DNA of 64,000 bases from Cellvibrio sp. 79 (lineage in GTDB: Bacteria; Pseudomonadota; Gammaproteobacteria; Pseudomonadales; Cellvibrionaceae), in contig MVDH01000003.1 of NCBI GenBank assembly GCA_003056245.1, forward strand, positions 907,957 to 971,956, in the 5' to 3' direction. Both the position numbers and the translations under genes were made by a program. How positions within the stretch are numbered: position 1 is the first letter of the stretch; each line of letters starts with the position of its first letter. Below are positions 6,955-15,770 of the stretch, piece by piece. Below the pieces are notes generated by a model, which made no database searches, was not told where the DNA came from, and worked only from the letters and a program-made list of their open reading frames with translations.

Positions 6955-7842
6955 ATGGATATCACCAAACTCCGTCTCTTTTGCACTCTCGCCAATAGCC
7001 TGCACTTCGGCCGTGCGGCGGCCAGCTGCCATGTCAGCCCGTCAACCTTAAGCCGCAATATCAAGCAGCTTGAAGATGACCTGGGCATTTATTTATTCAC
7101 GCGCGATAACCGTTCTGTCGTGCTAACCCATGACGGCGAACAATTTTTGGGATTTGCCAAAGAGGTCATCCTGCAATGGGAAACCTATCAGGAATCACTG
7201 CTCGCCCAAGCCGATCAGCTGCGCGGACAACTCAGCATTTATTGCTCGGTCACCGCGAGCTACAGCTTCCTTTATGAAATCCTTACCGAATTCCGCGTTA
7301 AACATCCCGGTATTGCGATCAAACTCCATACCGGTGATCCAGCACAATCAATTGATCGCATCCTTGCAGGCGAAGAAGACATCGCCATCGCCGCCAAGCC
7401 GGAAAAATTACCCGCCGGTATCAGCTTCAAACCCATCAACAGTTCACCGTTGATTTTCATCACTGCTAATAATGAAGACTGGCAGGGGAAAAACTGGGAA
7501 GAAATCCCCGTAATCATCCCCGAAGAGGGATTGGCAAGAGAGCGGCTGGATAAATGGTTTAACTCACTCAACATCAAACCGAATATTTACGCGGAAGTGA
7601 AAGGCAATGAAGCAATTGTGAGTATGGTGAGCCTGGGCTTCGGTGTCGGTGTCGCTCCTCAAATCGTGGTCGATAACAGCCCGCTGGCCGATAAAGTAAA
7701 GCGCTTTGATCCGCAACCCGATCTCGGCCCGTACGATACCGGGGTTTGTGTGATGGAGAGGCGCTTGAAAAGCCCGATACTCGCTGCATTCTGGTCACAG
7801 CTAACGCATAAGGAGAATTCCGGACTATCGGGCAAATATTAA
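6955..7842 (+). CDS. ilvY: LysR-family activator of ilvC, IlvY
   Basis: This LysR-type regulator should activate ilvC in response to acetolactate or acetohydroxybutyrate. The N-terminus MDITKLRLFCTLANSLHFGR, the helix-turn-helix HVSPSTLSRNIKQLEDDLG and SVTASYSFLYEILTEFR follow E. coli IlvY closely, and the C-terminal half has the matching VSMVSLGFGVGVAPQIV. The frame is open from an ATG at 6898. I chose 6955 (295 aa) because the family starts there; no strong ribosome-binding site distinguishes the two. The divergent position next to ilvC supports the name. Its 3' end overlaps the convergent wHTH regulator gene by 18 bases. Confidence 0.92.
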   Translation: MDITKLRLFCTLANSLHFGRAAASCHVSPSTLSRNIKQLEDDLGIYLFTRDNRSVVLTHDGEQFLGFAKEVILQWETYQESLLAQADQLRGQLSIYCSVTASYSFLYEILTEFRVKHPGIAIKLHTGDPAQSIDRILAGEEDIAIAAKPEKLPAGISFKPINSSPLIFITANNEDWQGKNWEEIPVIIPEEGLARERLDKWFNSLNIKPNIYAEVKGNEAIVSMVSLGFGVGVAPQIVVDNSPLADKVKRFDPQPDLGPYDTGVCVMERRLKSPILAAFWSQLTHKENSGLSGKY

Positions 7843-8697
7843 TTCCCGATCCAGCACGCGCAGCAAATTAGCCTGCAATTTATTGCTATCCAATCGCACC
7901 GAAGCTGCGCGCTGCTCAACACCGGTTTGCGCATCCACCAGGCCTAGCTCAATAACTTCCTGCCCGGCGATACGCACAACCCTGCTCTCAATAACCCAGT
8001 GCGCATCAAACTCGCGATATAGATAGGGAAAGGGATTTTCCGCGTGGCCAGACATTGCATTGCGTGATAACAGATGAACCCCCGGATACGCCCTGAGCAC
8101 ATCGCGCAGTGCACGATCCACACTTTCTTCAGTTTCGCTGGGCTCGGCGCCGGCAAAAATCGGCACCAGCGCAACGTGAAGCAAGGGCATATGCGCTTTC
8201 CAGCTTAACCATGCACTTATCGACATAGTTGCAAGTGCGGCAATCACCACATAGATAAGCAACATTCGCCACAAAGACACTCGGGAATGAGGGGCACCCG
8301 GTGACTGTTCAATTAAATTTTCCTCCACGGGAACTGTATCTACCGGAGTAGCCGCGACCAGCCCAGCGGTTAATTCAGGCAGCCAGCGATAGCCACGCTT
8401 AGGCAATGTTTCAATAAATTTTTCAGTTGAATTAAGTTTTACAAGCTGGGTACGAATATCAGATATTGCGCGCGTTAGTACATCATCGCTCACCAATTGG
8501 TTCGGCCACACAAAATCAAATAACTCCTGGCGTGTGGCTAGCTCACCAGCACGATCGATCAACACCATCAGCAACCGTTGATTAATAGGGTTAAGTCGCC
8601 ATGAATCGCCGGCTGGATTTTTCACCTCGCCCAAACCAAGGTCGATGGATAATCCGGCGCAACTATAAAGTGATTTATTGTTATTCATCATATTCAT
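7825..8697 (-). CDS. ToxR/CadC-like membrane-anchored transcriptional regulator
   Basis: Residues of about 12-108 form an OmpR/PhoB-type winged helix (INQRLLMVLIDRAGELATR, DDVLTRAISDIRTQL, ETLPKRGYRWLPEL). There is no receiver domain. A proline/acidic linker leads to one transmembrane helix (about 142-164, WRMLLIYVVIAALATMSISA), and the last ~125 residues would be periplasmic. This is the layout of one-component membrane regulators such as CadC and ToxR, which sense outside the membrane and bind DNA inside. ATGs lie at 8697, 8691 and 8688; the exact start is uncertain. It is divergent from an unknown membrane-anchored protein (8852), the natural candidate target. Confidence 0.82.
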   Translation of the reverse strand: MNMMNNNKSLYSCAGLSIDLGLGEVKNPAGDSWRLNPINQRLLMVLIDRAGELATRQELFDFVWPNQLVSDDVLTRAISDIRTQLVKLNSTEKFIETLPKRGYRWLPELTAGLVAATPVDTVPVEENLIEQSPGAPHSRVSLWRMLLIYVVIAALATMSISAWLSWKAHMPLLHVALVPIFAGAEPSETEESVDRALRDVLRAYPGVHLLSRNAMSGHAENPFPYLYREFDAHWVIESRVVRIAGQEVIELGLVDAQTGVEQRAASVRLDSNKLQANLLRVLDRELIFAR

Positions 8698-8851: not shown

Positions 8852-10315
8852 ATGATCCCAATACAAAAAACAATTCGCTTTATGTCTGCCTTGATTATTT
8901 TATTGTCGTTAATAATTGCCATGCTGCTCATCCCTAATTTTCATCTGTTCGATGAAACCCTATTACCGGAAATACAGGCAATGCCCCATTCGTCACCGGG
9001 CAGTAGGTCCAGCAATGGGCTGGTTTATGCGTACGGCATAGACGCCCCGGAGGGTGTTGCCCCCCACGCCGCTGGCGAAGAAATTATTGCGCTGATGCAA
9101 AACAAAGTGGCCACCGGCAAGTGGGGACCGCTCACCTTCAGTGAAACAGAAGCCATTTACAAGCAACGCAAAGTTGCTTCCTTTGAACCAAACGACTATA
9201 CCGCCATGCAGCCAAACTTTGCGCTGGAAAATGTCACGCCACCCTTAAAACAATCTCGCCCAAGCCGGCAAAAAAATGACTGGCAGCAAACATGGTGGCG
9301 CGATTACTCTTCCGCGCTGGATTGCAATTCTTTCGAGCGTAGCGATTGTTTTATACAGGTAAGTCGTCAGTTAAAAAGCATTCCGCTGCAAGATATGCGG
9401 CTGGTATTACGCTTACAGCGTTACCGTAAACTTATTCAATTCAATCAATACTCCGATGCTGTCGAAATGAAATTACCATCGCCGCTCGGTACCCCCATGG
9501 TCAATGGGCGAATTAATCTTGCGCAAGCCTATATTAATGATCCTACCAGCAGCTTCCTTATCACCTGGCAACAGGACACCAGCTTCTGGCTCAGGGTCTT
9601 GCGCGGCAGCCAGTCACTAATGAGCAAGCACACGGCAATCAGTGTCCTCAGGTACAATTTACAGAGCATCAACTCATTGATTAATGAACGACAACTCACT
9701 CCCGAGCAACAACAAACAATACGGCAACTATTATTACCACCGCAGAATCTTGACTTTGCACAAGCGTTGCGCACTGCACAACATCATTTTCAAGAGCTCG
9801 AAAATACCTGGGCATACATGGCGCACTCACCAACAAAAGTTCAATGGATTTATTGGCTTCGTCAGGATAACGCGAGCGCCAACGATTATTACCGTCGAAT
9901 CACCGCACCACTACTGCAATTAACACAATTAAAACCCGCTGACTTTGCTAGCGCCGCAAAAAAAATACAGCAAAAGGAACATATTGGATTCAGTTTAAGC
10001 CCCTATAATCTCGGGGAAAATTTTTTGCAGGAAAATCATCGCTCCTATCGTGATTTATTTATCTATTTATTAGCAGCTACAAACGACACGCTGGCGATTT
10101 ATCAAATGATCAATGTACAGCTGGATATTAAACAAAAACAGCCAGCCGATATTGCAGCATTTATCCGATCTGCCACACAACATGCCCCTTACACGAATGA
10201 AACGCTTAGCTACAGTGCTGAAACGGATGAGCTGGGCTTTCATTGTTTTAACAAACAGGATAATTGCACAATTAATTTACGCGACGAAAACACGATCAAC
10301 GAAACGGCTTACTAA
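8852..10315 (+). CDS. unknown protein with N-terminal membrane anchor
   Basis: I do not recognise a family. The 487-residue product has one hydrophobic N-terminal segment (about 12-29, [17 protein letters not shown]) that could be an uncleaved anchor or signal; the remainder looks soluble and extracytoplasmic. It has two close cysteines ([10 protein letters not shown], near 157-166) and two more near the C-terminus (HCFNKQDNC), which could pair in the periplasm. The middle is glutamine-rich and helical. AAGGA precedes the ATG with good spacing. It is transcribed away from the ToxR-like regulator, which suggests co-function, and overlaps the convergent glycosylase gene by 20 bases at its end. 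Confidence 0.75.
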
Positions 10316-10862
10316 GAAATGAGGACCCCGCCAAACCAAAACGCCAAGGCAAATCCATTGCTTTGGAAATTCCAATGCGTGGGCCGCGAACGACATCGAC
10401 AGGCGCGATAGCGGGTAATAATTTGAATGGTTTTTGGGCAAGGGAACGCCCGTTAAATGCATGTACGATCTCCAGCGCTTGCCCTACTCGCCCCGGACCG
10501 GAGCATAATAATTTTTCTGCTTCGACACCACGGCGCTCACGCATGATTTCCAAGCCATGGGTTGGCTGTATGGCGCGAATCAAAATTCCCGCTCCATGCC
10601 CTTCTGGCGAACATACAAAATTCAAACACCAGTGAATTCCGTAGGAACGATAAACATAAGCTCGCCCCGGCGGGCCAAACATGGAAGCATTGCGCACACT
10701 GGGGCCGGAGAATGTATGCGATGCTGGCTCTGCCTGATCATAAGCTTCCACTTCAACAATAATTCCGCCCACGCCATTTACAAAAAACTGCGCACCAATT
10801 AATTGCGGCGCGACTTCATGGGAGGGAGCAGAAAAATCTATTATGGAAAAGATATCTTTCAT
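10296..10862 (-). CDS. DNA-3-methyladenine glycosylase (AAG/MPG type)
   Basis: It belongs to the AAG/MPG family, which excises alkylated purines such as 3-methyladenine and hypoxanthine. Seen here are the active-site segment [18 protein letters not shown] (the acidic residue of VEAY being catalytic in the family), the [20 protein letters not shown] stretch and GSVL-like [11 protein letters not shown]. The length of 188 is typical. Its ATG overlaps the stop of the upstream 312-codon gene in an ATGA, so it is the last gene of the lipid-type operon and is probably translated by coupling. A DNA repair enzyme in this position is unexpected; it may simply ride along. Confidence 0.9.
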
Positions 10863-11797
10863 TGGGGTCCAGTTTCATCAGCCACTACAGATGCTTTGTT
10901 AACCGCATAATCCGGCGTATGGTGCTCGGCTTGCGCCCTTTTCAAATCCATTAAGAGCGCGTGTAACATTTCCGTCGAAAGACCGTGCAACACTAATCTG
11001 TAGCCCGCGCGCAAAGTACTCATTGGCACTAATGGATGTTTATTATTCAGCAGCACCAAATGTTGCGGTGAATTTAAAATCGTTGCCACGTACAAACCTA
11101 TCGTTTCATCTAACTGCAAGGAATTGGACGCACGCCAGAAATCATTATCGGTGAGAAATAATTGATAGGTCGGGGTAAACATTTCAATTGCCGTCTGCAG
11201 GTCAATGCCATTCAATATTCCTCTTGGCATTGATTCCAATGTCACTTCCGGTTCCTTAATCATACTGAAATCAGGATTAGCCACAGGACCCAATTTTTGA
11301 TTAGCATCGCGCAGTGCTTTACCCAAGCGAATAACAAAGTTAAACAAATTTAAATCGTGCTTTAAAAACAATTCATCTTTTAACTCATCCAGATTCATCG
11401 GTTTCAGCGGCGATGTTTCTACCTTAACGGGCGAATTCGCTGCAATAAATTCCAGTATCTGCGCTCCCATATGAAAGTGACGCAGCACCAGCCAATTGGC
11501 TTCAGGGCGCACGCAATATTTCAACCCGGTGGCGAGAATCCAGTGCAGCAATTTGGAGGCAGCCCAATTGCGCGGCACAACGACTTTCACAATCTGGATC
11601 AACACAATAAAAGTGCGCGCAACTGGTCGCACAAATGGTAATAAAAATTGGCGCGATGGCGTTTCCGAATCTGCCAGCCAGGCTTTCTTGACGTGATCCG
11701 GTAACGGCGTACTTTGATCGAGATACAACGCCAACCAGGGGTTTGGATCGCGCGGATCAAATTCCTGCGCTAAAAATTTGGGCGTTTTTTCCATCAT
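10859..11797 (-). CDS. unknown protein of the ketosynthase/desaturase operon
   Basis: I do not recognise the family. The 312-residue protein has no obvious signal peptide. It contains a hydrophobic stretch near 62-75 ([14 protein letters not shown]) and a second amphipathic one ([17 protein letters not shown]) that may lie on the membrane surface. There is a histidine pair HFHMGAQ near 107. Position is its main clue: it lies 14 bases after the ketosynthase fusion and overlaps the glycosylase start by 4 bases, so it belongs to the same transcript. It could handle the lipid product or substrate, but nothing in the sequence proves it. Confidence 0.7.
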
Positions 11798-11811
11798 AAA
11801 ATATCCAGAAA

Positions 11812-13686
11812 TTATGCTTCCACAATATGTTCAAACTGCATCAGATATAATTGCGCCGTGCGTTTTGCCGTGGCAAGAATTGTATTTACTGCTTTGGAAT
11901 CTTTTGCCAATACCAATTCCACAGCGGACAACCAACGCGCCAGATGGTGTTCATCGTTAGCGCCGTGATACTCCAGAAACCGAAATGCGCTTGCCGGCAA
12001 ATCAACCTGTTTGCGCAACAACGGCAGCAACGCAGGCACAATACGCTGGCCGGTACCCTCAATAATATAAATTGCACCCAATAAACCCAACGGATTTTTT
12101 GTTGCCGCCAATGCGTGCAGATAAGTATTTAATGCTTCACCACCGGGGTTACGCTGCAAATTATCCAATGCTTCTGTGCCGCCAGCACTGAGATAATCCT
12201 CATATAAAATTTTAAAATCGTTTTGTTCTTCACCCGCGTGCGTACTAATTAAATCTGCCAGTTCGGAATATTCATCACTAAGGGATGCAACCGCTTCGCG
12301 CATCCACTTACTGCCCTCGCGTACTTGAGGTACCCACTGCGCCGTCCAGCTACGATAATCCGCCACATCAAATTGATTGCTAACCAATTTATGAATCACC
12401 GGGCTGCGCCAGACTTGTGAGCGATAGTCATGCCAAACACCCGCTAATGACTGCAATAATTGCTGTAAATGTTGCGGGGCAGATTGCGGATCATGAGGGG
12501 GAGCAATAGGAACCTCCTGTTGTACTGGAGTAGCAACAACATTTTTCACGCTTATTGCTGCATCAGCCGCTTCAACTTCCAGCAACATATAGGCAGCAGT
12601 CATACGGCCAGACTCCGGAATAAAACAAAATATTTTTTCGCCGGGTTTTAGCGTATGGGTTTCAAGAAACTCTGCCAGCATGATAAAAATTGACGCTGAA
12701 CCGGTGTTTCCGCGTGTCGTTAAGTTGCTATACCAACGCTCGCGCGGAATACTTAATCCCGCTTTGGCTAATAATTCTTCTACAACGGGAATAAAACGAT
12801 TGGATGAATAATGGCAAAGGAAATGATCAATCTCGCTGGAATGAACCCAACCCTCTTGCACCAGCTTCACATATTCGTGGATGCTCACATCAAATAAGTG
12901 TGGCAATAGACGAATATCTTGTCGCAACGCCAACGCACCTTCTGCTTCCGCCTCACTGGAGGATGGAAAATCCAGAAACGATTTGCTGCGGTCTTCCGTT
13001 AGCCCAAGCTGCATGCAAACCGGATAATCGCCCGCAAAACTTTTTTGATGAACCCAATTTACTTTTAAACGTAGTCCATTTTTTTCTTGCGGATTATCCG
13101 TCAATAACAACGCGCCAGCGCCATCGGATAACATCCAGCGTAAAAAGTGCGCATCGAAATCACTTTGATAACCGCGCGGAGCGAAACGGCTTTTTTTGAA
13201 AATGCGCGACGGCATTTCGGCAGCAGCGACCACGGCGTGCTGATGCGCACCCAGCTCAATTGACTGCGCCGCATAATTAAGTGCGCCAATACCTGATGCA
13301 CAAACACCCAAACTCGATAACGTTTCCATTGGCCGCGCACCCAACTCACCTTGCACCATCGCCGCAAAACCCGGAATCAATGCATCACTGCCCGTTGAAC
13401 CCATAGTCAACAAACTAACATCGTTCAATGCAATATTGGTGCGCCGCAAACAATCTTCAATTGCATTTGCCGTGAGGCGTGCATGGGTTATTGCCGTTAC
13501 ACCGTTTTTATCAAGCGCATAATAACGCTGCTGAATTCCGTTCTCAGCGAGGATTTTGTTTTTAATTCGCAGCGAAATACGATTAATAGGGGCGATGTAA
13601 TCATCCATTGCCTCATTATCAACGGGCAATCCAGGCAAATGATAACCGGCGGCCTGAATATAAACACGATTAAAACGAGTGGGCAT
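11812..13686 (-). CDS. ketosynthase III - heme-oxygenase-like di-iron oxidase fusion
   Basis: Residues 1 to about 375 are a beta-ketoacyl synthase III fold resembling the FabH and StlD/DarB families. The Cys-His-Asn triad is intact: Cys129 in GVCASGIGAL, His292 in FLCHYSSNR and Asn327 in TRGNTGSAS. After a proline/glutamine linker (about 385-405), residues 406-624 form a helical domain of the heme-oxygenase/TenA-like type. Likely metal ligands are His483 with Glu486/487 (HAGEE), Glu543 (YIIEGTG) and His574-x3-Asp578-x2-His581; the last spacing matches that of di-iron HO-like oxidases such as CADD. By inference, one domain would make or load a beta-keto or condensed acyl chain and the other oxidise or cleave it. 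AAGGA is well spaced before the ATG. The operon has desaturase and hydroxylase genes upstream. Substrate unknown. Confidence 0.85.
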   Translation of the reverse strand: MPTRFNRVYIQAAGYHLPGLPVDNEAMDDYIAPINRISLRIKNKILAENGIQQRYYALDKNGVTAITHARLTANAIEDCLRRTNIALNDVSLLTMGSTGSDALIPGFAAMVQGELGARPMETLSSLGVCASGIGALNYAAQSIELGAHQHAVVAAAEMPSRIFKKSRFAPRGYQSDFDAHFLRWMLSDGAGALLLTDNPQEKNGLRLKVNWVHQKSFAGDYPVCMQLGLTEDRSKSFLDFPSSSEAEAEGALALRQDIRLLPHLFDVSIHEYVKLVQEGWVHSSEIDHFLCHYSSNRFIPVVEELLAKAGLSIPRERWYSNLTTRGNTGSASIFIMLAEFLETHTLKPGEKIFCFIPESGRMTAAYMLLEVEAADAAISVKNVVATPVQQEVPIAPPHDPQSAPQHLQQLLQSLAGVWHDYRSQVWRSPVIHKLVSNQFDVADYRSWTAQWVPQVREGSKWMREAVASLSDEYSELADLISTHAGEEQNDFKILYEDYLSAGGTEALDNLQRNPGGEALNTYLHALAATKNPLGLLGAIYIIEGTGQRIVPALLPLLRKQVDLPASAFRFLEYHGANDEHHLARWLSAVELVLAKDSKAVNTILATAKRTAQLYLMQFEHIVEA

Positions 13687-13689
13687 AAA

Positions 13690-14553
13690 TTAGTCCTTAA
13701 GGTGGAGCGAGCGGCTACGCCAGCGCGCATGCAATAATCCCAAACAATAGGTGCGCAACATATAACGCAATAATCCCGGCTCATTCAAGCGCGGATCGAT
13801 TAGCGGGCGATATTTCTCGTGCAGCGAAGACAGCTCTGACCAATGCGCACGCGGGTGGTGATGGTGTGCAGTATGTAAACCAATATTAAATAACAATGGA
13901 TTTACCAAACCATAAAAATTACGTGCAAAATTTATCGTCGCACCACTTCCGTCAGCATGGGCGTGCTGCAAATAATTCGTTGCCAATAACCAATGCAGTC
14001 CGTGTAGTTGTGGAATCAGCACCAATATTAACCAGCTTTTCCAATCCAGCCATGCCAAACATCCCCATAACAGCAACACCAAAAAATATTGCGCAAGCAC
14101 GTAGTAAAAATAGGCACGGCGAAAACGGTATAAGCGTTTCATCCAGCAAATAAACAGCGGATACAACACATACGTTGCCTGAAAAGGGTGTAACAAATAT
14201 CCCAATAAATGATTGGTATCACCGCGCGCGCCAGGAAATGAAAAACGATAGGTTCGCGCAACATCGTGCTCACCATGCTTATGACGATGGTGATTGGCTA
14301 TGTGGGCAGGATAAAACACAAAGGTCGGATGACCTTGCAACAGACCAATCCACAAATCGGTAACGCGATTCAACACGCGGGATCGCCACATGCGAAGATG
14401 CGCGTGGTTGTGGTGAATCACCCCCACACCCAGAGTTAAAAACAATTCCAGTAAATAAAGCGGCCAATGAAAACCATTCCGCCATTGCCAGATAACGACC
14501 GCCGGCAATAACAATAAATAGAAAACACTTTGCCAATCCCGCCAGTTGCGCAT
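13690..14553 (-). CDS. membrane fatty-acid desaturase-like di-iron enzyme
   Basis: It is an integral membrane protein of 287 residues with the histidine clusters of the membrane fatty-acid desaturase superfamily: HHNHAH near 47, HIANHHRHKH near 83, QHAHAD in the middle and HTAHHHHPRAHW near 225. Hydrophobic helices alternate with these clusters. Members insert double bonds, hydroxylate or (UndB type) decarboxylate acyl chains; the sequence does not show which. The stop is 3 bases before the ketosynthase fusion start and the gene lies 5 bases after the hydroxylase stop, so the three are one tight operon. Desaturation of the ketosynthase's substrate or product is an inference. Confidence 0.88.
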   Translation of the reverse strand: MRNWRDWQSVFYLLLLPAVVIWQWRNGFHWPLYLLELFLTLGVGVIHHNHAHLRMWRSRVLNRVTDLWIGLLQGHPTFVFYPAHIANHHRHKHGEHDVARTYRFSFPGARGDTNHLLGYLLHPFQATYVLYPLFICWMKRLYRFRRAYFYYVLAQYFLVLLLWGCLAWLDWKSWLILVLIPQLHGLHWLLATNYLQHAHADGSGATINFARNFYGLVNPLLFNIGLHTAHHHHPRAHWSELSSLHEKYRPLIDPRLNEPGLLRYMLRTYCLGLLHARWRSRSLHLKD

Positions 14554-14558
14554 AAAAA

Positions 14559-15311
14559 CTAACGCACTCGCCAGCGATTGATTTGTTTATCTGCCGCATC
14601 GGCAGGTAATGCAGTTTTAAAAATCCAATCCATAAATGGAAACATAAAACCGTAATTGCCGTTGAAGCAGGCATGATGCAAATGATGGCGCCGCGCTCCG
14701 TTAAAAATAACGCGCGGCGAACGGGGATTAAAATCAAAATTGGAATGGCCGATGCTATTGAACAACAAACTAAACAAGGGCACTGAAAAAAGCGCATAGA
14801 CACTAAAATCATGCATTACCATCGGCAACAAAATTACATTGCCCAACATCAACGCCTCCACTGGGTGAAATGCATAAGTGGACCAGGGAGTTGTGACTAC
14901 TGAACGATGATGCGGCAAATGAAACTGCCGCAACCAACGCGTATGCAGCAACCAATGGTTGAGATAGAAATGGATTTCATTCCAGATAACCAGTACAAAA
15001 ATTTCAAGCGCAATTTGCCAACCGGAAGGGTTAACCGCTAATCGCGCCCAACCAAGCTGCAATAATCCCCAAGGGAAAACCATCCCTATTCCAAAAATAG
15101 CAATGGAGCTGGCTGACAGTAATAATTCACGCTGCAATTGCCCCTGTCCCAGCGGGCGAGGATCGAGCCTGCAACCGATATGCAAGCGCGGTAGCAATTG
15201 CCGGGTAAAAAATACATTCAATGCGCCGAACATTAAATAAATACCGCCAAAAAACGCCAGGCCTACGGCGGCGATTTCCCACGCGGCACAATCTAAAATA
15301 AATTCTCGCAT
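14559..15311 (-). CDS. sterol desaturase / fatty-acid hydroxylase family protein
   Basis: It carries the FA-hydroxylase histidine pattern in order: HFYLNHWLLHT, FHLPHHRS, a mid-chain H in SIGHSNFDFN and RRHHLHHACFNGNYG. Hydrophobic helices lie on both sides. Enzymes of this family use a membrane di-iron site to hydroxylate or desaturate lipids. The frame is open from a TTG at 15344. I chose the ATG at 15311 (250 aa) because GGAAG stands 8 bases before it. It lies second in the operon, between a small membrane protein and the desaturase. Confidence 0.87.
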   Translation of the reverse strand: MREFILDCAAWEIAAVGLAFFGGIYLMFGALNVFFTRQLLPRLHIGCRLDPRPLGQGQLQRELLLSASSIAIFGIGMVFPWGLLQLGWARLAVNPSGWQIALEIFVLVIWNEIHFYLNHWLLHTRWLRQFHLPHHRSVVTTPWSTYAFHPVEALMLGNVILLPMVMHDFSVYALFSVPLFSLLFNSIGHSNFDFNPRSPRVIFNGARRHHLHHACFNGNYGFMFPFMDWIFKTALPADAADKQINRWRVR

Positions 15312-15371
15312 ACTAAAGCTTCCACTTATGCACCACGATAGCAACTAGCCACCATCCGTTGGAGCCATTGT

Positions 15372-15770
15372 TTACTGCCAGAAACTGCGCCACAGATAAC
15401 GGATAAACAAAAATCCACCCGACAACACATGGCCTATCAAAAACATAAATCCACTAAACATAACCGCCGCCGCTGAATCGCTATACTGATCAATACGCAA
15501 AATGTGCGTTCGGAAATGAAACCCCAGGAGGTAAAAGGGCAATCCCAAAATAAAACTTTGTAGCCAAATACTCCAAAAAGAATCCGCAAAGTAAGCCAGA
15601 AATGGATTGATGAAAAGCAACATCGACACCATCACATCCCAGCCTTGGGCCTCATTGTGACGGGAGACCAGTTTCAACGTAATTGCTTTAACGCTCGATA
15701 TAAGCAGCAACGCAACATGCCACGACAAGGGCGAGAAGATAATATCGTTTAACAATAATTCTTTATTCAT
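15372..15770 (-). CDS. small polytopic membrane protein, unknown
   Basis: A 132-residue protein with about three to four hydrophobic segments (WHVALLLISSVKAITL, MVSMLLFINPFLAYFA, WLQSFILGLPFYLLGF, AAVMFSGFMFLIGHVLSGGFL) and an Arg/His-rich loop between the last two. I do not recognise the family. It is the first gene of the presumed lipid operon: the next start lies 60 bases downstream on the same strand, and the terminator of the DUF2167 gene lies upstream. It may be a membrane partner of the desaturases. Confidence 0.68.
   Translation of the reverse strand: MNKELLLNDIIFSPLSWHVALLLISSVKAITLKLVSRHNEAQGWDVMVSMLLFINPFLAYFADSFWSIWLQSFILGLPFYLLGFHFRTHILRIDQYSDSAAAVMFSGFMFLIGHVLSGGFLFIRYLWRSFWQ

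Follow-up and report, generated by a model that had tools for sequence, protein, structure and literature searches.

Organization of the locus

The DNA analysed here, hereafter the window, is a 64,000-nucleotide stretch of the Cellvibrio sp. 79 genome (contig MVDH01000003.1, positions 907,957 to 971,956; genome of 5.7 Mb in 13 contigs), and at window positions 10296-15770 it holds six genes on the minus strand that an earlier note on the sequence had taken for one compact operon. When we checked the open reading frames (ORFs) of the window, all six were confirmed at these positions, and the products of five exceed Pfam cut-offs, the 132 amino acid (aa) protein being the exception. Four of the genes, encoding a membrane hydroxylase (FAH), a membrane desaturase (FAD), a ketosynthase (KS) fused to a heme-oxygenase-like (HO) domain and a DUF6999 protein, form a conserved cassette at 10859-15311. 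The features are as follows.

14559..15311, minus strand: FAH, membrane fatty-acid hydroxylase/sterol desaturase family, 250 aa (PF04116, 82.7 bits, cut-off 31)
13690..14553, minus strand: FAD, membrane fatty-acid desaturase family, 287 aa (PF00487, 89.8 bits, cut-off 29.7)
11812..13686, minus strand: KS-HO fusion, StlD/DarB-like KS plus heme-oxygenase-like domain, 624 aa in one ORF
10859..11797, minus strand: DUF6999 protein, 312 aa (PF22523, 430.4 bits, cut-off 27)
10296..10862, minus strand: MPG, DNA-3-methyladenine glycosylase (PF02245, above cut-off), judged to lie outside the pathway
15372..15770, minus strand: small membrane protein, 132 aa, of no family, judged to lie outside the unit

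The gaps are 5 bases between FAH and FAD, 3 between FAD and KS-HO and 14 between KS-HO and DUF6999, and DUF6999 overlaps MPG by 4 bases. The listed FAH ORF begins at a TTG at 15344; since the alignments with Cellvibrio relatives begin no earlier than residue 10-12, the start is probably the ATG at 15311, which gives the 250 aa protein. The His clusters that had been called complete in both membrane enzymes are indeed 98-100% conserved (91 FAH loci and 88 FAD loci). FAH and FAD both belong to His-cluster membrane diiron families. The three different iron-oxygenase folds counted in the earlier note are thus a slight overstatement. PDB sequence searches with FAD and FAH returned nothing useful. 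The GC content of the cassette (46.2%) is the same as that of the window and gives no sign of recent compositional foreignness, and promoter and terminator scans gave results at or below chance.

Conservation of the cassette

A scan of 84,980 species genomes with a DUF6999 profile yielded 437 stretches coding for a relative, of which we kept the best 80. These are the closest relatives and wider draws were therefore added, the first two of which (phylum and order) included the source genome. Loci were counted by tblastn; a simple gene caller misread high-GC loci. The nearest named relatives of the source genome were Cellvibrio, and Achromobacter, Variovorax, Alcaligenes and Azoarcus are among the genera represented at the 80 kept loci.

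At 77 of the 80 closest named loci, FAH, FAD, KS-HO and DUF6999 lie in this fixed order on one strand. The earlier note had named rare co-occurrence as the outcome that would speak against it, and we observed the opposite. Among the 80, locus L074 (loci, L, and genomes, G, carry our own numbers) is cut by its contig, and in two Variovorax loci (L135:3764-5424 and L144:8219-9867), whose flanks resemble those of L101, FAH is followed directly by DUF6999, without FAD and KS-HO. KS and HO share one open frame in all 78 pairs found in these 80 loci. Triple fusions (FAD-KS-HO or KS-HO-DUF6999), hinted at by long ORFs in high-GC loci, were rejected, as none of the 78 KS-HO loci holds one.

The wider draws gave the same association of KS, HO and DUF6999. 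In the phylum draw, DUF6999 was found in 9 of 398 genomes and KS and HO adjoin it in all nine; six also have FAH and FAD, G368 has FAD with no FAH detected, G420 has the gene for a membrane protein that we call C19 (see below), and G275 has none of FAH, FAD and C19. The order draw held DUF6999 in 17 of 390 genomes, 16 of them above the cut-off, with KS adjacent in 16/16 and HO in 15/16. The genome without HO is G721 (locus L175), and the seventeenth, G722, with DUF6999 below the cut-off, has neither KS nor HO. In the order of G275, which belongs to another class of the phylum, four of 196 genomes carry DUF6999 and three of these have KS-HO-DUF6999. Finally, 14 of 200 genomes in the order of G431 match the fusion at 1e-20; eleven carry the fusion, each with DUF6999 adjacent (11/11), and the four KS-only places, one of which G431 has in addition to its fusion, all lie in dialkylresorcinol (dar) clusters.

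The co-occurrence of FAH, FAD, KS-HO and DUF6999 is far beyond chance. Over 86 loci, the pairwise distances computed for each of the five domains show correlations of 0.92-0.97, which partly reflect shared ancestry and come from hits not individually screened for orthology. Since no FAD was found in L038, L199 and L200, the core consists of KS, HO and DUF6999, with FAH and FAD as the tailoring part. A plasmid search matched 51 records, with identity below 60% throughout, and among the 15 matches listed one spans at least 80% of the query, in Pseudoalteromonas sp. THAF3, where KS and HO are annotated as two genes.

Limits of the unit

Twelve of the 21 genus genomes match the fusion at 75% or more, one of them (G011) as a contig-cut piece. 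In G018, which has no such match, the gene order is ilvI-ilvH-MPG and some 60 bases separate MPG from ilvH; in G013 the order is DUF2167-MPG. MPG is present in six of the nine genus genomes without the fusion; among genomes that hold the cassette or part of it, G019 has an MPG fragment only and in G012 and G011 none was found. The empty site is L218, and MPG without the cassette is also seen in L216 and L219-L222. The occurrence of ilvI-ilvH-MPG without the cassette and of cassettes without an intact MPG thus identifies MPG as a resident repair-gene neighbour and rules it out as a pathway gene. The 132-aa membrane protein was likewise dropped from the unit, having no homologue in 20 neighbouring loci (1e-4) or in the 80 named loci (1e-5). 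What stands of the proposed six-gene operon is therefore a conserved unit of four genes.

One genus assembly with 7% contamination (G010) holds two fusion copies, at C8:3034-4905 (92%) and C36:3306-5177 (87%), which may be a duplication or come from a mixed bin. On the plus strand of the window, a 487-aa protein without a Pfam family is encoded at 8852-10315, its end overlapping that of MPG by 20 bases, and a divergent gene for a winged-helix regulator (7825-8697) adjoins it.

The ketosynthase and heme-oxygenase-like domains

The KS domain covers approximately residues 1-375 of the fusion. Its Cys-His-Asn triad, which the earlier note had described as intact, is C129-H292-N327 and aligns with the triad context of StlD, the bacterial stilbene ketosynthase of Photorhabdus (PDB 5gk0-5gk2). 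The KS His is probably the counterpart of H302, the residue changed in 5gk2, the numbering offset being deduced. Among solved structures StlD is the closest to the KS by sequence (1.5e-67 over residues 6-371, 34-36% identity) and also the top structure match; it lacks the HO domain of the fusion, and on the NCBIfam StlD/DarB model the window KS stays under the cut-off. In the AlphaFold2 model of the fusion the KS half came out poorly (block means 26-85), and its geometry was left unused. With StlD/DarB as the nearest characterised relative, the KS points to a cyclohexanedione- or resorcinol-type condensation, and the terminal olefin or polyene that had been suggested as product loses ground.

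The HO domain, at approximately residues 400-620, matches Haem_oxygenas_2 (PF14518) with 45.3 bits (cut-off 28.9), and a search with its profile retrieves 3dde, which is HO-like and has no assigned function, at 8e-12. In the AlphaFold2 model this region (401-620) has block means of 66-93, mostly above 80, and a heme-oxygenase-like fold that matches 3dde with a TM score of 0.78 on the target and a root-mean-square deviation of 2.8. Seven residues are invariant in 15/15 HO sequences, namely H483, E487, D490, E543, H574, D578 and H581 in the numbering of the fusion, and D490 aligns with a His of 3dde. A review of heme-oxygenase-like diiron oxidases (HDOs), PMC13108848, counts the fatty-acid decarboxylase UndA, CADD and SznF among them and gives ligand sets of 3H/3C and 3H/4C; the words "fusion" and "polyketide" are absent from its main text. 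The invariant residues fit either set in kind. The domain is a putative non-heme diiron-type oxidase. It has the PF14518 match and the fold of HDOs and an invariant set of three His and at least three carboxylates, and differs from HDOs in its fusion to a KS; the His/Asp arrangement on its first ligand helix, a possible variant site, looks unlike that of CADD.

One could also imagine a head-to-head, OleA-like condensation to a beta-keto acid, which the HO domain would oxidatively decarboxylate in the manner of UndA to a ketone or olefin, with FAH and FAD as modifying enzymes. OleA structures are indeed among the structure matches of the KS model, and UndA shows that an HDO can decarboxylate fatty acids, but the OleA matches shown have 17-19% identity against 34-36% for StlD, and none of the genes beside the cassette was recognised as an ole-like partner, most neighbours in relatives being left unnamed by the family search. 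We consider this route unlikely.

Comparison with dialkylresorcinol clusters

Relatives also carry dar-type clusters (L044-L050 and L201-L204), and these loci hold darB (the KS), a gene at the position of darA, DarG- and DarH-type proteins, ABC genes and a ketosynthase, although not every gene was called in each locus. Two genus genomes (G006 and G015) have a dar cluster without the cassette. The dar assignment is based on the gene table of PMC3949708, gene order and NCBIfam scores, and the darA-position gene, which has no Pfam or NCBIfam match, is named from its place beside darB as in that source. In L045, a 132-aa protein reaches 170 bits on the DarG family (cut-off 70), and a BtrH-like protein 490 bits on DarH (cut-off 300); there is also an 88-aa ORF with a PP-binding (acyl carrier protein, ACP) match. 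The KS of this locus scores 585 bits on the StlD/DarB model NF005293 (above the cut-off of 450) and 485 on the DarB model NF053539 (below 550).

The dar clusters, of arcuflavin and flexirubin types, share with the cassette the superfamily and the triad of the KS, and acyl-derived substrates are expected for both. In contrast, the cassette lacks the darA-position gene, the ACP, DarG, DarH and the ABC genes; it has DUF6999, FAH and FAD instead, and its KS is fused to HO and belongs to a separate group. When 51 KS sequences were placed in a tree, the cassette-type (37 rows) and dar-cluster (11 rows) groups lay apart, with support of 100/98 and 100/99, respectively. The KSs of three DUF6999 loci (L039, L174 and L175) sit with the dar group under midpoint rooting, used for drawing only, and their placement speaks against a clean division into cassette and dar systems.

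A search with the darA-position gene of L045 found nothing in the cassette genomes G000, G014 and G012, while the positive controls G015, G026, G033 and G431 matched. G431 carries the cassette and a dar cluster together, so the two are not alternatives for one function. That the cassette might be an ordinary dar cluster in reduced form, as the superfamily shared by its KS and DarB would allow, is thus opposed by the separate KS group, by scores below both NCBIfam cut-offs, by the lack of a darA-position gene in those three genomes and by the two systems of G431, and we regard it as very improbable.

Other architectures

In the remaining loci that have both, KS and HO are separate adjacent genes; since they are adjacent there and fused here, the fusion itself links the two. 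Nine loci (L040-L043, L068 and L170-L173) show a second architecture in which separate KS and HO genes lie downstream of C19. C19 is a family of His-rich membrane proteins of about 190 aa without a Pfam match (for example L041:5939-6514 and eight relatives), whose invariant His include H30, H47, H81, H86, H104 and H106; it is a candidate for an unrecognised membrane metalloenzyme and may substitute for FAH and FAD. KS-HO-DUF6999 without C19 is seen in L039, L165-L169 and L174.

Among the three loci of the G275 group, an LplT/Aas acyl-ACP-phospholipid O-acyltransferase lies directly 3′ of DUF6999 in L067 (4700-8098; 1581 bits, cut-off 1349) and L197 (4184-7573; protein 94% identical) and not in L196, which suggests an acyl-lipid context. 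This neighbour, together with a weak match of FAH to the ornithine lipid hydroxylase OlsE (17 bits), would suit an acyltransferase role, in which the KS would transfer acyl groups to a carrier or small acceptor, to be hydroxylated or desaturated by HO, giving a modified polar lipid, for example an ornithine-lipid-like one. However, the OlsE score is far below its cut-off of 475, no acceptor-making gene is found in the cassette, and the KS triad is that of condensing enzymes, so we find such a role rather improbable.

L175:901-16902 combines genes for a type I polyketide synthase (PKS), an FA_desaturase, a DarB-like KS, DUF6999, an SBF transporter, two P450s, MMPL and a PapA-like protein. It resembles the cassette in its KS-DUF6999 pair and FA_desaturase gene, and differs in the PKS and P450s.

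The DUF6999 protein

The AlphaFold2 model of the DUF6999 protein is all-alpha (pLDDT 81, pTM 0.81). A fold search of the PDB gave no significant match (best Foldseek E 0.29, TM about 0.1), and a PDB sequence search nothing useful. Six residues (H107, H147, D148, D199, D230 and H271) are invariant in 16/16 sequences and in the model sit in, or adjoin the start of, five helices; a metal site would be a guess from these residue types. Residues 51-77 are hydrophobic. At L198:8729-8917 a DUF6999 C-terminus remnant is found at the place where L196, from a relative of the same genus, has KS-HO-DUF6999 complete.

Proposed function and significance

We propose that a fatty acyl chain would be loaded on C129 of the KS and joined to another chain, probably a 3-oxoacyl one, in the manner of StlD/DarB, yielding a product of dialkyl-cyclohexanedione type or a related beta-dicarbonyl. 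With O2, the HO domain fused to the KS would then act on this product, replacing the separate DarA aromatase of dar clusters. DUF6999, the third component of the core, would also work on that product and may be a metalloenzyme as well, and FAH and FAD would hydroxylate and desaturate the membrane-bound alkyl chains. The genes and their order, their conservation, the fusion, the homologies and the active-site residues are observed, and all of the reactions are inferred. That an acyl-derived product is made by the KS and oxidised by HO seems to us quite probable, and the acyl chains that the earlier note expected as substrate are supported. DarB-like ring chemistry is the likeliest single reading, held at a little short of even, and to the best explanation of the whole, DarB-type chemistry that acts on acyl chains and has become O2-dependent, we would give an even chance.

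Several observations weigh against this proposal. The KS reaches 342.2 bits on NF005293 (cut-off 450) and 288.4 on NF053539 (cut-off 550), and since it is below both curated cut-offs its reaction may have changed; being outside the curated family, it could also serve an olefin/ketone or acyl-transfer version. The first ligand helix of CADD presumably carries a Glu/His pair, against which the His/Asp pair of the HO domain looks swapped. The cassette has no ACP or acyl ligase gene. L175 pairs KS with DUF6999 and no HO was found there at 1e-4, and the two Variovorax loci keep FAH and DUF6999 without KS-HO, so that parts of the cassette are separable. Moreover, one of the four DUF6999 genomes in the order of G275 (G919) has a DUF6999 remnant and no KS or HO.

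The earlier note knew of no described pathway with this gene set, and we likewise found no description of it among titles and the beginnings of abstracts in the open-licence literature, for some searches among the best 20-25 matches. DarB-like KS chemistry and HDO chemistry are known; their combination here appears to be new, and the cassette may well stand for a pathway class of its own. More specifically, and more tentatively, the cassette could represent an undescribed widespread class in which a diiron oxidase fused to the KS oxidises the nascent ring or beta-dicarbonyl product in DarA's stead, with the help of DUF6999 as an all-alpha metalloenzyme of new fold (3H/3D); the two membrane diiron enzymes would act afterwards, and the product would be a new class of lipid. 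The cassette provides the first functional context for DUF6999 and, at just 4.5 kb, can be expressed whole. A natural fusion of a KS with a diiron oxidase would, if true, be a new coupling of C-C bond formation to O2 chemistry.

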